The notes below the pieces were generated by a model that did no database searches, was not told the DNA's origin, and saw only the letters and a program-made list of their open reading frames with translations. Positions 3,657-43,081 of a DNA stretch of 62,161 nt are shown piece by piece (the first letter of the stretch is position 1; each line of letters starts with the position of its first letter). The translations under genes and the position numbers were made by a program. Source of the stretch: Proteobacteria bacterium CG1_02_64_396 (GTDB lineage: Bacteria > Pseudomonadota > MNWR01 > CG1-02-64-396); contig MNWR01000031.1 of the NCBI GenBank assembly GCA_001872725.1, positions 1 through 62,161 on the forward strand, written 5' to 3'.

Positions 3657-5576
3657 TCAGGGGGGGAAGCTAAACCCGCGCGCCCGAAACAGGGCCAAGC
3701 AGGCATCGACCACAATCGGGTCGTACAACACCCCCCGATGGCGCTCGATCTCCTCCAGCGCCGCCTCGATCCCCAGGCCGGGCCGATAGGGGCGATGGGA
3801 GGACATCGCCTCGACCACATCGGCCACTGCGAGAATTCGCGCCTCGGGCAAGATCTGCCCCCCCGTGAGCCCCTGCGGGTAGCCGGAGCCGTCCAGCCGC
3901 TCGTGGTGTTGCAACACGATCTGGGCGATGGGCCAGGGGAAGGTCACCCCCTTGAGGATGTCGTGCCCCGCCTGGGCATGCTCCTTGATGATGGCGAACT
4001 CAAGGGGGGTGAGTTTGCCCGGCTTGGAGAGGATCTCGGCCGGGGTATGGATTTTCCCCAGGTCATGGATGCTGGCCGCCAGATGGATGCCGTGGATTTG
4101 CTCCTCGGGTAGCCCCATCTCTTGGGCAATGGCGGCGGCCAGATCGGCCACCCGACGTTGGTGTCCGGCGGTATAGGGATCGCGTGCCTCGACGGTGGCG
4201 GCGACGACCTGGATCGATTGCTCCAGGCTTTGGCGCAGTTGAATCCCATGTTGCTCGTGGGCGATCCGGGTGCGCAGGGTCAGGATTCCATAGGCCAGGT
4301 CGCTGGCCAGTTCCTCCAGCAATTGGACCTCGTCGGCCAGGTCGAAGGCGTGGGTTTGCTGGGCGTAGATGCTTAAGGCGCCGAAGGTCCCCTGGGGCGA
4401 GACCAACGGAAGGGCGATGTTCGAAAGGTAGCCCCGTTCCAGCGCTGCTTGATGCCATGGGGCAAAGGAGGGGTCGTTTTCGATGTCGGGGCTGGTCTGG
4501 GTGGTGGCGGTGCGGATGGCGCGGGCGACCGGCAACTGCCCCCCCTCGTTGTCGCCCCAGCTCAGGTCGTGCGTCCAGTATTCCCGCTCTTCCATACTCG
4601 ACCAAGCCATGGGGGTCAGGCTTTTTTGCGGGTCGTCCTGGGCAAAATCGACCACCGCCAAGGCATACCCCCCCTCCTCGACAATGACCCGGGTGACCGC
4701 CCGCAGCAGCTGCGCTTCGCTGACGGCGCGCACCAGCGCCAGATTGCCCGCCGACAGGGTTTTCAGCGCCCGGTTGGCGCGGCGCAAAGCATCTTCTGCC
4801 TGCTTGCGCTGGGTGATGTCGCGGACGATGCCCACCGCCTGCCATCGCCCGGCTTGCTCCATGGCCGACAGCGACAGCTCGATGGGGAATTCCTCCCCGG
4901 TACGACGTCGTGCGATCAGTTCAATCGTCTTGCCGATCACCGGGCCTGTACCGGTTTGGTAAAACTGGGATAGCCCGCGCTGGGCCTCCTCCCCAAAGCG
5001 TTGGGGCGCCAGCAGGGTGTGCAGATCTTGTCCCAGCGCCTCGTTGGCGCTGTAGCCGAAGATGGTTTCGGCGGCGGGGTTGAAAAAGGCGATTTTCCCG
5101 GCGTCGTCCAGCATCAGGATGGCGTCCCGGGCGGTGGTCGTGATGCTGCGCAGTTGTTCCTGACTTTGGCGATGGCGGCGGATTTCCTGCGCTTCGGCCA
5201 ATGCGCGACGAATGGCCGAAGGCAGCCGGGCCAGCCGGTCCTTGAGGACGTAATCGTTGGCCCCGGCATGGATCAGCTCGACCGCCTCGATGTCGGGCAG
5301 AGCGCCGGTGACCATGACCACCGGCAGGTCGGGATGATCGAGCCGCACCATGCGCAGGGCGTCCAGGCCGGTGAAGGCGGGCAGGTTGTAATCGCTCAAG
5401 ATGATGTCGGGATGGAATTCCCTCAGCGCTTGATCGAAGGCGGCGCTGGTGGTCACCCGGCGGACCGTGAAGGCGATCCCCTCTTTGCGCAGCTCGTGCT
5501 CCATGAGCTGGGCGTCCGAGGGGGTGTCCTCCAGCATGAGAATACGCAGTTCTTGGGGGGGAGTGGTTTCGGGCAC
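3657..5576 (-). CDS. Response regulator with PAS, GAF and HD-GYP domains (cyclic-di-GMP phosphodiesterase)
   Basis: 639 residues. REC domain at about 9-125 (RILMLEDTPSDAQ; phospho-acceptor Asp in ILSDYNLPAF). PAS at about 140-262 (FFNPAAETIFGYSANEALG). GAF at about 275-440. HD-GYP at about 450-635, with the metal-binding HD (SIHDLGKIHTP) and the HHERLDGSGYP signature, so it should hydrolyse cyclic-di-GMP. I place the start at GTG 5576, two bases after the upstream stop, with AAGAGG five bases before it. The longer frame to 5927 runs through the neighbouring gene and is not credible. It is the third gene of a kinase-regulator-effector unit. Confidence 0.9.
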   Translation of the reverse strand: MPETTPPQELRILMLEDTPSDAQLMEHELRKEGIAFTVRRVTTSAAFDQALREFHPDIILSDYNLPAFTGLDALRMVRLDHPDLPVVMVTGALPDIEAVELIHAGANDYVLKDRLARLPSAIRRALAEAQEIRRHRQSQEQLRSITTTARDAILMLDDAGKIAFFNPAAETIFGYSANEALGQDLHTLLAPQRFGEEAQRGLSQFYQTGTGPVIGKTIELIARRRTGEEFPIELSLSAMEQAGRWQAVGIVRDITQRKQAEDALRRANRALKTLSAGNLALVRAVSEAQLLRAVTRVIVEEGGYALAVVDFAQDDPQKSLTPMAWSSMEEREYWTHDLSWGDNEGGQLPVARAIRTATTQTSPDIENDPSFAPWHQAALERGYLSNIALPLVSPQGTFGALSIYAQQTHAFDLADEVQLLEELASDLAYGILTLRTRIAHEQHGIQLRQSLEQSIQVVAATVEARDPYTAGHQRRVADLAAAIAQEMGLPEEQIHGIHLAASIHDLGKIHTPAEILSKPGKLTPLEFAIIKEHAQAGHDILKGVTFPWPIAQIVLQHHERLDGSGYPQGLTGGQILPEARILAVADVVEAMSSHRPYRPGLGIEAALEEIERHRGVLYDPIVVDACLALFRARGFSFPP

Positions 5577-5578
5577 GA

Positions 5579-6037
5579 TTACCTCTTCGTCGCCAGCGGC
5601 GGTCGATTGACCAGCAGCCAGTACATGCCCATTTCGGCCACCGTTTTGGCGAACGCGTCGAACTCCACCGGTTTGCTGATGAAGCTGTTGACCCCCAGGT
5701 TGTAGCTTTCGGCCACATCGCGGTCCTCTTTGGAGGAGGTCAGCACCACCACCGGGATGGTTCGGGTCCGTTCGTCGGACTTGATGCGGCGCAGTACCTC
5801 CATGCCGTCGACCTTGGGCAGACGCAGGTCGAGCAGGATCACCTTGGGGCCGTTTTCGACCGAACGGTGGCTGTAGTCGCCTTGGGCGAAGACAAAATCC
5901 AGCGCCTGCGCCCCGTCTTTGACCCACTCCAGCTTGTTGGCCAGGTGTTGTTTGTTCAGGGCACGGATCGCCAGCTCTGCGTCGGTGGGGTTGTCCTCCA
6001 CCAACAGGATCTCAACTTCGTTCATCGCTTCACTCAT
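5579..6037 (-). CDS. Single-domain response regulator (Rcp1-like)
   Basis: 152 residues consisting of one REC domain. The acidic pocket is [13 protein letters not shown], the phosphorylation site sits in [13 protein letters not shown], and the Thr/Lys switch residues are in [10 protein letters not shown] and SFISKPVEF. The pattern, with long loops and no output domain, matches the Rcp1/phytochrome-associated regulators. The start is ATG 6037, with GAGGAG seven bases upstream; it overlaps the end of the kinase gene by eight bases. It most likely shuttles phosphate from the upstream kinase to the downstream HD-GYP protein or another target. Confidence 0.9.
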
Positions 6038-35397: not shown

Positions 35398-37257
35398 GTG
35401 GATATCGAGGCCATGAAGGTTTTGAAAAGCCGATGGTTGGTCATCCTGCACGACCTGTTCTGGGTGCCTGCAGCCCTGATCGGAGCGTACTGGTTGCGCT
35501 TCAACCTTGGCAGTATCCCCGATCTCTTCTTCGATCGGATGTGGGCGCTTGTTGGTTTGGCTGTTCCCATCCAATTGGCAACGTTTTGGTGGTTCGGCCT
35601 GTACCGGGGCATTTGGCGTTTCGCCTCGATGCCCGATTTGATGCGTATTGTTCAGGCGGTGGGGGTGGGCAGCCTGGTATTGGGATTGGCGGCCGTGCAG
35701 ATTTACCGAATGGTGGATATCCCACGGAGTGCCCTGCTGCTTTATCCGATGCTCCTGGTGTTGGGTTTAGCGGGGCCGCGGTCGCTCTATCGGTGGCTTC
35801 AGGACCGCCGTTCGCACCATCGGCGCCGGGGCGAGTTGCGGGCGTTGGTGGTGGGATCAGGGCGGGAGGCCGAGGCGCTGATCCGCGGTTTGAGCCATCA
35901 AGGGGGCTACCTGCTGGTCGGCCTGATCGACGGTCACCCCAAGAAGCAGGGGCGGGAGTTGCTCGGGGTTCGGGTTTTGGGGGTTCCGGAGCAGGTCCTG
36001 GATCTGATCCGTGCGTACCACATCGACGTCGTCTTATTTGCGGCCGACGACGTCGAAAAGGTGGTGCTGGAGCAGGTCGTGGAGGCCTGCGGCCAGGCCC
36101 ACATCCCCGCCCGCATCCTCCCCTCCATGCGGGATATGGCCGATGGGAAGTTCGAGGTCTCCAAGCTGCGCCCGCTCACCGTCGAGGACATCCTTGGGCG
36201 TCAGCCCATTCTGCTCGACATGCAGGCCATCGGCTCCTACCTGAAGGGCAAACGGGTTCTGATCACCGGCGGGGGGGGCTCCATCGGTTCGGAGTTGTGC
36301 CGCCAAATCGCGGCGCGAGCCCCCGAAAAACTCATCATCCTGGAACACGGGGAGTTCAACCTTTACCAGATTGAACGGGAGATCCGCGCCCTGCATCCCG
36401 GCCTGAATCTGGTCCCCGTCCTGGGGGATGTTCGGGATCCCCACCGGGCGCAGATGGCATTTGAGCAACATCGTCCCGAGGTGGTGTTCCACGCAGCAGC
36501 CTACAAACACGTCCCCATGGTTGAAGCCAATCCGGAGGAGGGGGTCTTCAACAACGTCATGGGGACCAAAGTGATCGCCGATTTGGCCGACCGCTACGGG
36601 GCCGAACGTTTTGTGTTGGTCTCCACCGATAAGGCGGTCAACCCGACCAACGTTATGGGGACCACCAAGCGGGTGGCTGAGATCTACTGTCAGAATCTTG
36701 CATTGCGTTCAACAACCCGCTTCATCACCACCCGGTTTGGCAATGTTCTTGGTTCGGCCGGCTCGGTTGTCCCTCTGTTCCAGGAGCAGATCGCCAATGG
36801 GGGGCCGGTGACCGTGACCCACCCCGAAATCACCCGCTATTTCATGACGATTCCCGAGGCGGTGGGATTGATCCTGCAAGCTGGGAGCATGGGATCGAGG
36901 GGGGAGATCTTCGTGCTCGACATGGGGGAGCCGGTGAGGATTCAGGATCTGGCCGAGCAGATGATCCGTTTGTCGGGCAAGGAACCGGGTCGCGACATCG
37001 AGATCGTCCATACCGGCCTGCGCCCCGGCGAGAAGCTCTTCGAGGAGCTCTTCCACGAGACCGAAGCGTTGCAGGGGACCAACCATCCCAAATTGTTGTT
37101 GGCGGCGGCACGGCGGGTCGATTGGAACTGGTTGTTGGCCGAACTAGCCACACTGGAGGAGGTCGGACGGTCGCAGAACGAGGCGATGCTGCGGGAACAC
37201 CTGCAAAAGCTGGTACCAGAGAGCCGGCTTCTCACTTCGCCGCAGACCGTCGCTTAA
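35398..37257 (+). CDS. Membrane-anchored UDP-sugar 4,6-dehydratase (WbpM/PglF/CapD family)
   Basis: 619 residues from GTG 35398; ATG 35413 is the alternative. Four transmembrane segments (about 12-125), a first nucleotide-binding domain ([17 protein letters not shown] at about 150) and a C-terminal SDR domain from about 285 ([14 protein letters not shown]). The catalytic region reads [18 protein letters not shown], with Met in place of the usual SDR Tyr, as in WbpM/PglF. It converts UDP-GlcNAc to the 4-keto-6-deoxy sugar for bacillosamine, QuiNAc or FucNAc routes. It ends the cluster; its stop overlaps the convergent YgiQ gene. Confidence 0.94.
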
Positions 37258-39179
37258 TCGCGCCCCCGCCCTCCCTTCGCCGCTGTGCCGGGCCGCCTGC
37301 CCCGTGGCGCCAGAGCGCGGCTGGTGTCGCGCCCCGCAGATCCGCCGCCGCTGGGACGCGATGGGGATCCCCCCCGCAGCGCCACCCCCGGCGGCACCAA
37401 CGCCCCCCTCCCCACCCCGATCAAATCCTTCCTCCCCATCTTGAGTAGCGCCCCCCGAATCAACGGCCAATTCTTGGGGTCGTGGTAACGCAGCAGCGCC
37501 TTATGCAGCGCCCGTTGCCCGGCCCGTTTGGGGATTTCGACCGGGGGCAGGCTCTTTTTCAGGGTGTTGCGTCCGGTGTGGTACATGGCGGTGGCAATGG
37601 CCATGGGTGATGGCAAAAACGTTTGCACCTGGTCGACCCGGTAGCGATGCCGTTTGAGCCACACCGCCAGGTTGACCATGTCGGTGTCGGTGGTGCCGGG
37701 GTGTCCGGCGATGAAATAGGGAATCAGGTATTGCTCCTTGCCCCCCTTTTTCGACAACCGCTTGAACAGGGTGTCGAAGCGGTCGAAGACCTCGATTCCC
37801 GGCTTGAGCATGCAGTCGAGCACCCCCTTCTCGGTGTGTTCGGGCGCTACCTTCAGATACCCCCCCACATGGTGGCGCACCAACTCCTCGACATACTCGG
37901 GACTACGTAACGCCAGGTCGTAGCGCACCCCGCTGCCGATGGTCACGGTGTGCACATGGGGGATGGCTCGCACCGCCCGGTAAAGCTCGATCAGGGGGGT
38001 GTGGTCGGTGTTGAGGTGCTCGCAGATGTCGGGATGCACGCAGGCGGGGCGGCGGCAGGCAGCCTCGATCTTGGGGTCGGAGCAGTGCAACCGGTACATG
38101 TTGGCGGTCGGTCCCCCCAGGTCACTGATGTACCCCGTGTAGCCCGGCGTTTTGGCCCGTATCTCCTCGACCTCGCGCACAATCGACCCCTGGGAACGGT
38201 TCTGAATGATCCGCCCCTCGTGCTCGGTGATCGAACAAAAGGTGCATCCGCCGAAGCAACCCCGTTGGATGGCGATCGAAAACTTGATCATTTCGTAGGC
38301 GGGGATGTGGGCCTGGCCGTAACTGGGGTGGGGGCGGCGGGCGAAGGGCAGGGCGTAAAGGCGGTCCATTGCCGTAGTTTCCAGCGGCAGCGGTGGGGGG
38401 TTGATCCAGACGATCCGCTCCCCGTGGCGCTGGGCCAGGGGGCGGGCGTTGAAGGGGTTGGTTTCGCGGTGGAAAAGGTGGTCGGCCTGGGCGAAGGTGG
38501 CTGGGTCGTCCCGCACCGCTTCAAAGGGGGGCAGAGCAACATGCTCAGGGAGCGGCGTGTTTTTCGGCAACAACCGCGCCGTCCCCCGAACATTGCCGAT
38601 GTCGCCGATGGCCTCCCCCGCTTGCAGCCGGGTCACCAATTCGGTTAGCGCTGCCTCGGCGTTGCCGTACAGCAGTAAATCCCCCTTGGCGTCGAGCAAA
38701 ATCGAGCGGCGTACCGTGTCGGACCAATAATCGTAGTGGGCGATGCGGCGCAGGCTGGCCTCGATCCCCCCCAACACAATCGGCACCCCCTTGAAGGCCT
38801 CGCGGCAGCGCTGACTGTAGACGATGCTGGCTCGGTCGGGCCGTTTGCCCCCCTGCCCGCCGGGGGAGTAGGCGTCGTCGGAGCGGATTTTTCGGTTGGC
38901 GGTGTAGCGGTTGACCATCGAATCCATGTTCCCCGCCGTCACCCCGAAGAAGAGGTTGGGGCGTCCCAGTTTTTGGAAGTCGGCCACCGTGTTCCAATCG
39001 GGCTGGGCGATGATCCCCACCTTAAGCCCCAAGGATTCGAGCAAACGACCGATCAACGCCATGCCGAAGGCGGGGTGGTCGATGTAGGCATCCCCGGTAA
39101 CCAGGATGACGTCGCAGTTTTCCCAGCCGAGCTGATCCATCTCGGCGCGGGACATGGGGAGGAAGGGGGCGGGATTCAT
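37254..39179 (-). CDS. ygiQ: YgiQ family radical SAM protein
   Basis: 641 residues. The N-terminus [34 protein letters not shown] is typical of the family (cited in part: [11 protein letters not shown]). The radical SAM cluster motif is CFGGCTFC (C-x3-C-x2-C) at about residue 306, preceded by KFSIAIQRG. The C-terminal part is Arg/Gly-rich and probably disordered. YgiQ proteins are universal in many bacteria, but their substrate is unknown. The gene is convergent with the polysaccharide cluster, and the two stops share TTAA at 37254-37257, without a terminator between them. Confidence 0.93.
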
Positions 39180-39289: not shown

Positions 39290-41194
39290 ATGTCAATTCG
39301 GATCATCTTGTTCGTGGCGGTGACGGTGATGCTGGTGGCGGTCGAGTCGGTCGGCACCTGGATCGGCAACCGCCACGTCAAAATAGAGATGGAGGCGCTC
39401 TCGCGCCAACAGCTCAATGTTTCGGCATTGGTGTTGCGCGACACCTTGATCGAGATGATGCGCATGGGGGTCGACGACGAGGATCTGCATAACCTCTACG
39501 CCCGTTTCAGGCGGATGCAGGGGGTGCGCGACCTCAGGGTTTGGGTCGCCCCCTCGGTGGTGCGCGATCACGACCTTCAAACCCCCCACCACATCATCGA
39601 CGACCGCCCCGAATGGATCGGATTGGCGCAGGACTCCCCCCGCATGTTCTGGCAATCCGACGCCACCCCTCCCACCTTGAGATTCCTCCACGCCGTGCTG
39701 GCCGAGGAGCAGTGCTTGCAATGCCATGTCAGCGCCCAGGAGGGGGATATGCTGGGGGTGATCGACATCGACATCGACATGAGCCAGGTGCAACAGGCGG
39801 TGGTCCACAATCAGTGGGAGCAACAGACCATTGCCATCGCCGAGCTGGGGTTGATGTTGGCGCTCCTGCTCCTCCTGGGCGAATGGCTGGTTTTTCGCCA
39901 TTTGCGCCATCTGCGCGAGGGGATGGAGCGGATGATGAGCAACGGCCACACCCTGGTCGCCATCCCTGGCGAATCGGGCAACGAAATCGGGGCGCTGATC
40001 TCTGGGTTCAACCGCATGGCCCAGCGCATCCGCGATCTGCTGTTGGAACAGCGCAACACCATCGCAACCCAAACCCAGGAGTTGTCGGTACTGCTCGAAA
40101 CCAGCCACGCCCTCTCCGGCGCGGTTGATCCGCTGCGCTCCCTCGACCGCTTGGCCGAAAACCTGACCCGAGCCAGTGAGACGGCGGCCTGTCAGATCTT
40201 GCTTTGGCAAGAGGGGCAGGAGGGGCGCGTACTGGAACGGCAAGGCCGCTTCCCGGTGCGCACGCTGCCCGCCATTGCCGACCCCGCATGGGCGACGGTG
40301 CGGTTGAACGAATGCCCCGTCATCGCTCGGATTTTAGAAGAGAGGCGGCACAAGGTGGTCGAGCGGGGGGAAATCGTGCAGCTGTGCGACCGGCAGGTGT
40401 TGTTGCTTGGCGGGGGGAGGGCAGCCTTGGCGATCCCGTTGCTCAGCCGCAGCGAGGTCTTGGGGCTGGTGGTGCTGACCGAGTTCCGCGATGCCGACCG
40501 GGCGCCCATCACCCCGCGCAAGATCGAGCTGTGCAAGGCGATGGTGTTTCAGGCCGGGGCGGCGCTGGAGGATGTGCGGCTGCACGACCGGCTGGTTAAG
40601 CAGTTCAATGAGTCGGCCCTGGCGATGGCCGAGGCGGTCGACAAGAAATCGCCCTGGACCGCCGGTCATTCCCGCCGGGTGACCCAATTCGCCCTGCGGC
40701 TGGGCAAGGCGTTGGGTTGGGAGGAGGAACGGCTGGAGCTTTTGCGCATCGCCGGGCTACTGCACGACATCGGCAAGATCGGCACCCCCGGCGCCATCTT
40801 GAATAAGGGTGGTCGGCTCGACGACGCGGAATTTGCAGCCATGCGGCGCCATCCGGTCGACGGCGCCCAGATTTTGGGGCGGATGACCCCCTTCAAGCCG
40901 ATCATCCCCTTCGTGCGCCACCACCACGAGCGTTTCGACGGCCGCGGTTATCCCGACGGTTTGCGGGGGACCGAAATCCCCATCGAGGCACGGGTTTTGG
41001 CGGTGGCCGACGCCTTCGACGCCATGATCGCCGATCGCCCCTACCGCAAGGCGATGTCTTGGAACGAGGCATTGGATCAGTTGCATCGGGGCTCGGGGAG
41101 CCAGTTCGATCCGGGGGTGGTGGCGGTGGCGCTCACCGTTTTTTCGGATCAAGCGGGGGATGGGTGGGTGGTCGGTGGGGACGATGCCGAATGA
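39290..41194 (+). CDS. Membrane HD-GYP phosphodiesterase with periplasmic heme-c type sensor
   Basis: 634 residues from ATG 39290. TM1 at about 3-22, a periplasmic domain to about 175, TM2 at about 178-200 (LGLMLALLLLLGEWLVF), HAMP at about 200-260, GAF at about 275-430 and HD-GYP at about 440-625. The HD (LLHDIGKIGTPG) and HHHERFDGRGYP motifs are complete, so cyclic-di-GMP hydrolysis is expected. The periplasmic part holds C142-L-Q-C145-H146, a CXXCH heme c attachment motif, in a context (EEQCLQCH, then GVIDIDIDMS) like the heme-c sensor domains of some chemoreceptors. It probably senses redox state, O2 or NO. It stands alone. Confidence 0.9.
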   Translation: MSIRIILFVAVTVMLVAVESVGTWIGNRHVKIEMEALSRQQLNVSALVLRDTLIEMMRMGVDDEDLHNLYARFRRMQGVRDLRVWVAPSVVRDHDLQTPHHIIDDRPEWIGLAQDSPRMFWQSDATPPTLRFLHAVLAEEQCLQCHVSAQEGDMLGVIDIDIDMSQVQQAVVHNQWEQQTIAIAELGLMLALLLLLGEWLVFRHLRHLREGMERMMSNGHTLVAIPGESGNEIGALISGFNRMAQRIRDLLLEQRNTIATQTQELSVLLETSHALSGAVDPLRSLDRLAENLTRASETAACQILLWQEGQEGRVLERQGRFPVRTLPAIADPAWATVRLNECPVIARILEERRHKVVERGEIVQLCDRQVLLLGGGRAALAIPLLSRSEVLGLVVLTEFRDADRAPITPRKIELCKAMVFQAGAALEDVRLHDRLVKQFNESALAMAEAVDKKSPWTAGHSRRVTQFALRLGKALGWEEERLELLRIAGLLHDIGKIGTPGAILNKGGRLDDAEFAAMRRHPVDGAQILGRMTPFKPIIPFVRHHHERFDGRGYPDGLRGTEIPIEARVLAVADAFDAMIADRPYRKAMSWNEALDQLHRGSGSQFDPGVVAVALTVFSDQAGDGWVVGGDDAE

Positions 41195-41213: not shown

Positions 41214-42347
41214 TTACCCGAATTGTTTGATGTAATACTGCTCAAAAAACCGTTTGCCCCAGTGGAACAGCCTCCCGCCGGGCAACATAAAGCTGCGTTT
41301 TTCGCTGCGGTAGACCAGCATCGCCCCGTCGAGGTGGTCGAGCATGCAGACCAGCTCGGTTTTGGGAATGGCGGCCGGCCCCTTGCCCCGCAGGGCATCG
41401 AGCAGGTTTTCCACCGCCGCCTTGGCTTGCAGATCGGCCATGTGGGCCTGCTTGGGCAGCCAGTCGGGTCCGGGAAAACTCCCCGCATCCCCCGCCACGA
41501 AGAGTCGCTCCATTCCCACCGCCCGGCAGTAGGCGTCGGCCTGCACGAATCCCCCCGGCGAGAGTTCCAAGCCGCTCTGGGCGAGCCAGGCGGGTCCAGT
41601 CAGCCCCGGCATGAAGCAGATCAGATCGGCGGCGACCTCTCCCCCTTCGGTCACAACCTTGCCCTCTTCAAAGCGGACCATCTTGTGGCCCAGGTGGATT
41701 TGGATCCCCCGGTCGGCCAATTCAGCCAACAGGTGTTCCGCCGCTTTGTCGCCCATGCGCTGCCCCGGTTTGGGGGCGGGGCTGAAGAAGGTCAGCTCGA
41801 AGTTGTCGCGCTTCCAATGGCGGCGCAGCCAAGTGTCGATCCCCAACATGAGTTCGAACATCGGCCCCCCCCGCATGGCGGCGGGCTCTTGAGGATTGCC
41901 GGCAAAACCAAAGGCGATTTTCCCCCCCTCCATACTGCGCAGTTTGTCGCGGATTTGTTCTGCGGCCGGGATCCCCTCGCACAGGGTGACGGCGTGCTCA
42001 ATCCCCGGCAGTTTCTTGATGAAACGTCCGCCGCTGGCGATGAGCAGGGCGTCGTTTTCCACCTCCCCTTTGTCGGTGCGCACGATCCGTCCCCCCTCGC
42101 GCAGGCCAGTGACCTGGGCCGGGAAGAACTTGATTTTGTTCTGCTGCAAGAACGATTGCAGGTTGACCGTTAGATCCCGCCCCCGCCGCTGCCCGGTCGG
42201 GATCCAGATCAGGCTGGGGAGGTAGACGAATTCGGGCTTGGGCGCGACCAGGGTGATCTCAAGATCGGGGGGGCCGAAGCGACGCAGTTGGCGGATGGCG
42301 GTGACGGCGGCGAACCCGGCGCCCAGGATGACGATGTGTTGAGCCAT
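41214..42347 (-). CDS. FAD-dependent sulfide:quinone oxidoreductase-like flavoprotein
   Basis: 377 residues from ATG 42347. The FAD-binding fold opens with AQHIVILGAGFAAVTAIRQL, the second dinucleotide region is NDALLIASGGRF, and FVAGDAGSF is the family's flavin-contact motif. Overall layout and length fit the SQR/FCSD/NDH-2 group. Cys positions are 123, 244, 274 and 334. C123 and C334 match SQR Cys128 and Cys356 (A. ferrooxidans numbering), but the middle redox Cys (Cys160) is replaced in the PQEPAAMRGG region. It may therefore be a divergent quinone reductase rather than a true SQR. Confidence 0.85.
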   Translation of the reverse strand: MAQHIVILGAGFAAVTAIRQLRRFGPPDLEITLVAPKPEFVYLPSLIWIPTGQRRGRDLTVNLQSFLQQNKIKFFPAQVTGLREGGRIVRTDKGEVENDALLIASGGRFIKKLPGIEHAVTLCEGIPAAEQIRDKLRSMEGGKIAFGFAGNPQEPAAMRGGPMFELMLGIDTWLRRHWKRDNFELTFFSPAPKPGQRMGDKAAEHLLAELADRGIQIHLGHKMVRFEEGKVVTEGGEVAADLICFMPGLTGPAWLAQSGLELSPGGFVQADAYCRAVGMERLFVAGDAGSFPGPDWLPKQAHMADLQAKAAVENLLDALRGKGPAAIPKTELVCMLDHLDGAMLVYRSEKRSFMLPGGRLFHWGKRFFEQYYIKQFG

Positions 42348-42464
42348 GGCACGAACCCGCTGAGGAGGAAGGGGTGGAATTTGATGGGGGGGAGCCTGAC
42401 GACAAAGGGGCGTCAAGGCCCGGTATTCGATCACGGCGTCCAGGCACGATAAGGCAAGAAAACC

Positions 42465-42517: not shown

Positions 42518-43081
42518 TCAGCGCCGAGGCGGCTGTCCACCCTCCTCCATCCGGTTGCGGCGCTGCTCGCGGCGGCTGTCGAGCTGTTGCAGCTGTTCGG
42601 GGGTGAGGAGTTTGCGGACATCGCGCCAGTGCTGGAGGTGGGCGAGTTCCGCTTGGATCAGCAGCTCGTGTTTGGCTTGGATCGCCGCCGTGAGGTCGGC
42701 ATCGGTGGTGGCGGGGTCATTGCTCAAGGCCCGTACCTTGTCGATGGCTTGACGAATCTGCTCGCGCTCGTTGCTGCGTTGTTGAAGGAATGAATCGCGC
42801 AGCGCCTGAATCTTGGTCTTTTGCTCGGCCGTCAGATTCAGTGCATCCCAGCCACGCCCCATCCCAGGGGCGGGCCGTTTGGCTCCAGGCGCCGCCATGC
42901 CCGATTGTCCCGGCATGCAGGGTTGTCCCATGCCGGGGTGTCCCATGATGCAGGGTTGCCCCATGCAGGGGCTCGACTGCATCGGGGCTTCGTCCCATTC
43001 GTCGCCATCGTCTTCGGCCATGGCGGGAAGGGCGGCCATGACGAAACAACCTGCCAAGATCGGTGCTAGCCAATGTCTCAT
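42518..43081 (-). CDS. Spy/CpxP-like periplasmic metal-stress protein with Met/Cys/Pro repeats
   Basis: 187 residues. Signal peptide to about 22 (FVMAALPAMA). Residues about 35-65 form an unusual repeat of PC-M-GQ units (SPCMGQPCIMGHPGMGQPC), six Met and several Cys in about 28 residues, suited to Cu(I) or other soft metals. The remainder is helical with the LTxxQ-type motifs LNLTAEQ (about 82) and LLTPEQ (about 158) that mark Spy/CpxP/ZraP proteins. It is probably a periplasmic chaperone or metal sensor. It is monocistronic, with a strong terminator. Confidence 0.85.
   Translation of the reverse strand: MRHWLAPILAGCFVMAALPAMAEDDGDEWDEAPMQSSPCMGQPCIMGHPGMGQPCMPGQSGMAAPGAKRPAPGMGRGWDALNLTAEQKTKIQALRDSFLQQRSNEREQIRQAIDKVRALSNDPATTDADLTAAIQAKHELLIQAELAHLQHWRDVRKLLTPEQLQQLDSRREQRRNRMEEGGQPPRR

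Follow-up and report, generated by a model that had tools for sequence, protein, structure and literature searches.

The gene at positions 39290-41194 (+) of the window, by which we mean the whole 62,161-nucleotide stretch of DNA analysed here, encodes a 634-residue signalling protein with, very probably, a heme on the outer side of the inner membrane, where it would control a cyclic-di-GMP-destroying enzyme. This reading draws on sequence, a structural model, and analogy with published relatives. We consider it likely that a heme-c switch with His146 and Met57 as axial ligands, responding to redox state, NO, or both, sets cyclic-dinucleotide hydrolysis through the HAMP and GAF domains. If this is true, an attachment signal would have its level set directly from outside the inner membrane, by NO or by the redox state of respiration. 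An HD-GYP protein with this heme-c sensor has not been reported as characterised in the literature cited here.

The reading frame is uninterrupted and terminated by a stop codon, and its translation carries a layout that reads from membrane to cytoplasm. A first transmembrane helix (TM1, residues about 1-26; 39290..39367, +), assigned by hydropathy and contained in a helix of residues 2-58 in the structural model, is followed by a periplasmic Cache-type sensor domain (residues about 27-177; 39368..39820, +) predicted by AlphaFold2, Foldseek, and a family profile, and by a second transmembrane helix (TM2, residues about 178-204; 39821..39901, +), also from hydropathy. Three downstream domains each match Pfam above the family's own cut-off: HAMP (residues 205-249; 39902..40036, +; PF00672, E 1.1e-7), GAF (residues 282-426; 40133..40567, +; PF01590, E 4.7e-6), and HD-GYP (residues 446-609; 40625..41116, +; PF13487, HD_5, E 6.7e-44). 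The N-terminal part ahead of HAMP, comprising the first ~200 residues, matches no Pfam family above cut-off. The coordinates, residue numbers, and architecture given in the initial annotation are correct by translation, hydropathy, and the Pfam order HAMP-GAF-HD-GYP, and the heme motif that it had placed in the periplasmic loop before TM2 is found exactly there by translation and hydropathy.

This motif, C142-L-Q-C145-H146 (39713..39727, +), is a predicted heme-c attachment site with His146 as the putative proximal ligand, and it lies in the loop between TM1 and TM2, ~30 residues N-terminal of TM2. Because two membrane helices flank the motif-bearing loop, we place the CXXCH in the periplasm, and the arginine-rich sequence FRHLRHLR after TM2 fits a C-terminus-in orientation. 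A CXXCH arises by chance in 0.16% of shuffles of the 634-residue protein; more telling than this figure is the retention of the motif in orthologues, which rules out a chance origin.

Six orthologues were found, all from the Mariprofundus group, with 39-41% identity, and all six keep both the CXXCH and the HD-GYP domain. The motif played no part in their selection, which used overall similarity to residues 1-431. The first two, from Mariprofundus erugo P3 (L089) and a Mariprofundus metagenome-assembled genome (L088), both Zetaproteobacteria, emerged from a search with the sensor part in other genomes of the phylum (60 relatives) and align over nearly the full length of our protein at 40-41% identity. 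A profile of residues 1-431 run against 399 genomes of the phylum added four more, and a jump in E-value from 1e-152 to 1e-25 sets the orthologues apart from all other matches in these genomes. A search of 74 genomes of the orthologues' family found one in six of them and no further ones. Within the sensor part, identity to the orthologues falls to only ~30%, and our protein has a one-residue insertion after the CXXCH. The initial annotation had named orthologues lacking the CXXCH as one observation that would speak against its reading; we looked for them, and the motif is present in all six.

A scan of genome contigs for close relatives of the whole protein gave no match, and a search of plasmids gave no full-length relative at 80% coverage. 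Among the 25 loci of an alignment scan, only two are HD-GYP orthologues, the remainder being mostly histidine kinases as judged by a motif search. Histidine kinases also account for several of the best loci in a 395-genome phylum sample centred on a Deltaproteobacteria record; in this sample, where Geobacter is possibly unsampled, none of the loci read combines the sensor with HD-GYP.

The sensor domain can be placed in a family through profiles and predicted fold. We built a profile from 36 CXXCH-bearing regions, seven of them from HD-GYP proteins and the rest mostly from GGDEF and chemoreceptor proteins. Its best solved relatives are the sensor domains of GSU0582 (3b47, E 2.1e-9) and GSU0935 (3b42, E 4.1e-8), in matches that span the whole domain with the CXXCH aligned, and a profile of the seven HD-GYP members alone still reaches 3b47 at E 1e-3. 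A profile-profile comparison (probability 99.9, E 7e-32) places the sensors of the HD-GYP proteins in one family with those of the GGDEF and chemoreceptor proteins. PF21563 (Mcp40H-20_sensor) is matched by six of the seven HD-GYP members (best 1.8e-7) and PF11845, weakly, by all seven. Our protein on its own scores 13.0 bits against the PF11845 cut-off of 24.1 and does not match PF21563; since this direct scan leaves it below the cut-off, its proposed membership rests on profiles and fold.

An AlphaFold2 model of residues 1-215 (pLDDT 90.8) has a Cache fold, with strands at residues 79-86, 118-122, 129-137, and 154-163 and a short helix at 140-144 carrying the CXXCH. In this predicted, not solved, structure the helix sits between strands 3 and 4, and a CXXCH in a beta3-beta4 insertion is the defining feature of sCache_heme domains (PMC12889525). 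Foldseek places 3b42 and 3b47 among only four matches below E 0.001 (E 1.7e-4 to 6e-4), with 17-19% identity to the GSU0582 and GSU0935 domains. The accompanying rmsd is large (13-16 Å), plausibly because the Geobacter sensors crystallised as swapped dimers (PMC8396549).

Conservation across the family also points to the second heme ligand. Only five columns are invariant in the 36 aligned sensors, M57, C142, C145, H146, and G156; the rows were picked by their CXXCH, so the invariance of C142, C145, and H146 is not independent in this set, whereas that of M57 and G156 is. Met57 (39458..39460, +), a methionine in 36 of 36 sequences, aligns with a methionine located 83 residues before the heme histidine in 3b47 and 84 residues before it in 3b42. 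In GSU0582 and GSU0935, structures and spectroscopy identified Met60 as the distal heme ligand, together with His143/His144 (PMC8396549), and because Met60 is separated from His143 and His144 by just these 83 and 84 residues, we take M57 to be the equivalent of Met60. By alignment, M57 is in register with Met60 of both Geobacter proteins, on the first periplasmic helix. We predict heme ligation by His146 and, probably, Met57.

A possible route to heme attachment is also encoded: a search of the genome found ResB, of System II cytochrome c maturation (E 7e-95), and did not find CcmF of System I. The initial annotation had read the motif as a heme-c site coupled to an intact HD-GYP domain, and this part gains support from conservation in orthologues, the profile match to two heme-c sensor domains of known crystal structure, the predicted fold, the conserved axial methionine, and the maturation gene. 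Of the gases that it had listed for spectroscopy (O2, NO, and CO), O2 is unlikely to bind the periplasmic heme, by analogy with sCache_heme proteins. Two characterised members fail to form a stable complex with O2, and of these the signalling-type one binds NO tightly (PMC12889525). GSU0582 and GSU0935 switch in response to redox state and take CO and NO as ligands, and it has been proposed that their axial methionine is bound when the heme is reduced and released when it is oxidised (PMC8396549).

The HD-GYP domain was aligned with PmGH (4mcw) and V-cGAP3 (5z7c). Residues H460, H492-D493, K496, H521, H545-H546, and D574 and the GYP at 553-555 are all found here and do not vary across the seven orthologues (this protein included), and the sequence HHERFDGRGYP fits the HHExxDGxGYP signature. 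H460, H492, D493, H521, H545, H546, D574, and K496 correspond to H189, H221, D222, H250, H276, H277, D305, and K225 of PmGH, whose metal-ligand list we took from PMC4159591. Judged by sequence, the GYP loop is intact, as are the metal ligands that the two HD-GYP groups have in common, and the HAMP, GAF, and intact HD-GYP domains that had been noted downstream of the motif are borne out by Pfam matches above cut-off and by the retained catalytic residues. W456 occupies the position of PmGH E185, the glutamate of the third metal, in place of the Glu/Asp that characterises the trinuclear subgroup; a dinuclear enzyme of the aromatic subgroup is therefore expected, and the two-metal group is expected to stop at pGpG (PMC10882959).

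We propose a one-component signalling enzyme in which a single heme c would be covalently attached to C142 and C145 of the periplasmic Cache-type domain, with His146 as the proximal ligand and, most likely, Met57 as a distal ligand that can be displaced. When the heme is oxidised or NO binds, Met57 would be released or replaced and the long N-terminal helix would shift against TM2. Relayed through the HAMP domain and the GAF linker, the change would reach the HD-GYP domain, altering its hydrolysis of a cyclic dinucleotide, most probably of c-di-GMP to pGpG. The present analysis itself supplies the gene, its topology, the motif, the predicted fold, the conserved set of ligands, the intact catalytic residues, and the maturation gene. 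Published relatives are the source for the covalent heme, the redox-linked methionine switching, and the binding of NO rather than O2, each of which is expected here by analogy. Dimeric action, the direction of the effect, the substrate, and the physiological output, including the attachment to which the initial annotation had tied redox state, are what we infer.

The gene does not sit in an obvious operon, and its neighbourhood gives no hint of function. The radical SAM gene at 37254-39179 is divergent from it, and the gene at 41214-42434 (-), for an oxidoreductase of the FAD/NAD(P) type (Pyr_redox_2) that perhaps resembles sulfide:quinone oxidoreductases, is convergent with it. Beyond that lies a gene (42518-43081, -) whose product, of the LTXXQ/metal-resistance type, carries close to its N-terminus a repeat rich in Met, Cys, Pro, and Gly (PCMGQPCIMGHPGMGQPCMPGQ), which possibly binds metal. 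The window contains a second HD-GYP protein (3657-5927, -) with receiver, PAS, GAF, and HD-GYP domains, and the genome of 2.9 Mb has about 19 HD-GYP genes.

Elsewhere in the genome are three more periplasmic-type CXXCH sensors, two in GGDEF proteins, fused to GGDEF (L041:1381-3312, contig C104) and to PAS-GGDEF (L042:958-3144, contig C53), and one fused to GAF-GGDEF-EAL (L054:1-2139, contig C81), the last being a clear PF11845 member. Synthesis and breakdown of the messenger may thus both be under heme-c control. A separate 589-residue protein (L057:739-2505, contig C96) matches an FHA-like family (Yop-YscD_cpl) at its N-terminus, carries ten CXXCH motifs after that, and is, by its sequence, a putative multiheme cytochrome in an odd fusion with an FHA-like part. 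A PF00115 search of the assembly, which is 98.5% complete, revealed no full-length heme-copper oxidase or NorB; its sole match is a 179-residue protein (L113, C100:6342-6677) that matches only the C-terminal part of the family.

Among the alternatives to a heme-c redox and/or NO switch, the one that survives best is a dedicated NO sensor, in which NO would be released slowly, redox changes would be incidental, and NO would change cyclic-di-GMP hydrolysis. This is a narrower version of our preferred explanation, not its opposite, and we hold it as a tentative possibility. For the P. azotoformans sCache_heme protein, which is of the signalling type, NO release is slow (k_off about 6e-4 per s) and a stable complex with O2 does not form (PMC12889525), and NO is also bound by GSU0582/0935 (PMC8396549). 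However, that single tested protein represents a very large family, the conserved methionine suits a redox switch at least equally, and the PF00115 search, which should cover NorB-type NO reductases, gave only one short fragment in this genome.

A second alternative accepts the heme and changes the substrate, the HD-GYP domain acting mainly on 3'3'-cGAMP rather than on cyclic-di-GMP. Among solved structures, the domain is closest to V-cGAP3 (5z7c, E 2.4e-45, compared with E 1.5e-32 for PmGH), which is a 3'3'-cGAMP phosphodiesterase and has an S-P-aromatic-T-A-G-H motif in common with our protein. Best overall similarity does not define the substrate, though, and the aromatic residue in that motif characterises the second subgroup of HD-GYP domains in general (PMC4159591). 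On sequence, cyclic-di-GMP stays the default substrate and 3'3'-cGAMP the alternative suggested by kinship with V-cGAP3, one that we regard as improbable.

It is very unlikely that the protein is an oxygen sensor of the globin-coupled HD-GYP kind, with O2 on ferrous heme activating hydrolysis. O2 does activate the globin HD-GYP protein of Vibrio fluvialis (PMC10882959), and the heme-c chemoreceptor DcrA has been reported to sense redox and oxygen (PMC8396549), but the tested sCache_heme proteins yield superoxide instead of a stable O2 complex (PMC12889525), and O2 could act by oxidising the heme, which amounts to the redox reading. No more credible is a domain devoid of heme that senses an ordinary small ligand like most Cache domains, its CXXCH forming a disulfide or a metal site or being a mere remnant: our protein alone passes no heme-sensor profile and CcmF was not found, yet the CXXCH and the axial methionine are kept in every orthologue despite low sensor identity, heme-c structures are matched by both profile and fold, and ResB is present.

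Returning to the redox and/or NO switch, a more specific proposal is that Mariprofundus-type iron oxidisers and the present genome have in common a lineage-restricted family of heme-c redox switches coupled to cyclic-dinucleotide hydrolysis. Through its methionine ligand, bound or released, the family would read how oxidised the periplasmic electron-transfer pool is and thereby set whether cells attach to surfaces or form stalks at the oxic-anoxic front; we think this rather unlikely as it stands. Met57, as the predicted switch residue, makes the redox-switch proposal more sharply testable.

Comparison with known systems makes clear that the heme-c HAMP/GAF/HD-GYP architecture is not new, the sensor, the enzyme, and their combination all being on record from Geobacter. 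GSU2622 of Geobacter sulfurreducens and its Geobacteraceae homologues have been described as c-type-heme HAMP/GAF/HD-GYP proteins (PMC8396549, PMC2923632). GSU2622 has the same listed make-up of one c-type heme motif, HAMP, GAF, and HD-GYP, a likeness taken from its published description; it belongs to a different phylum and is not biochemically characterised in these papers. GSU0582 and GSU0935, which are PF21563 relatives, agree in modelled fold, CXXCH position, and axial methionine (Met60 for M57) but differ in having a chemoreceptor (MCP) output in place of HD-GYP, and identity to them is low. The sCache_heme domains (DUF3365/Tll0287, PF11845; Deshpande et al. 2026 preprint, PMC12889525) have the common Cache fold with the CXXCH in the beta3-beta4 insertion and are likewise framed by two transmembrane helices and a HAMP domain and joined to a signalling enzyme; our protein differs in scoring under the PF11845 cut-off, and the main text of that paper does not name HD-GYP among the outputs. 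The globin HD-GYP protein of Vibrio fluvialis (PMC10882959) and hemerythrin HD-GYP proteins (PMC8846402) also place a heme or iron sensor of gas or redox state on an HD-GYP enzyme, but with a globin heme or hemerythrin iron site instead of a periplasmic heme c and with unrelated sensor folds. Against this background, the present work adds two points to the systems described earlier: a small family of orthologues with Mariprofundus at its centre and an axial methionine that does not vary.
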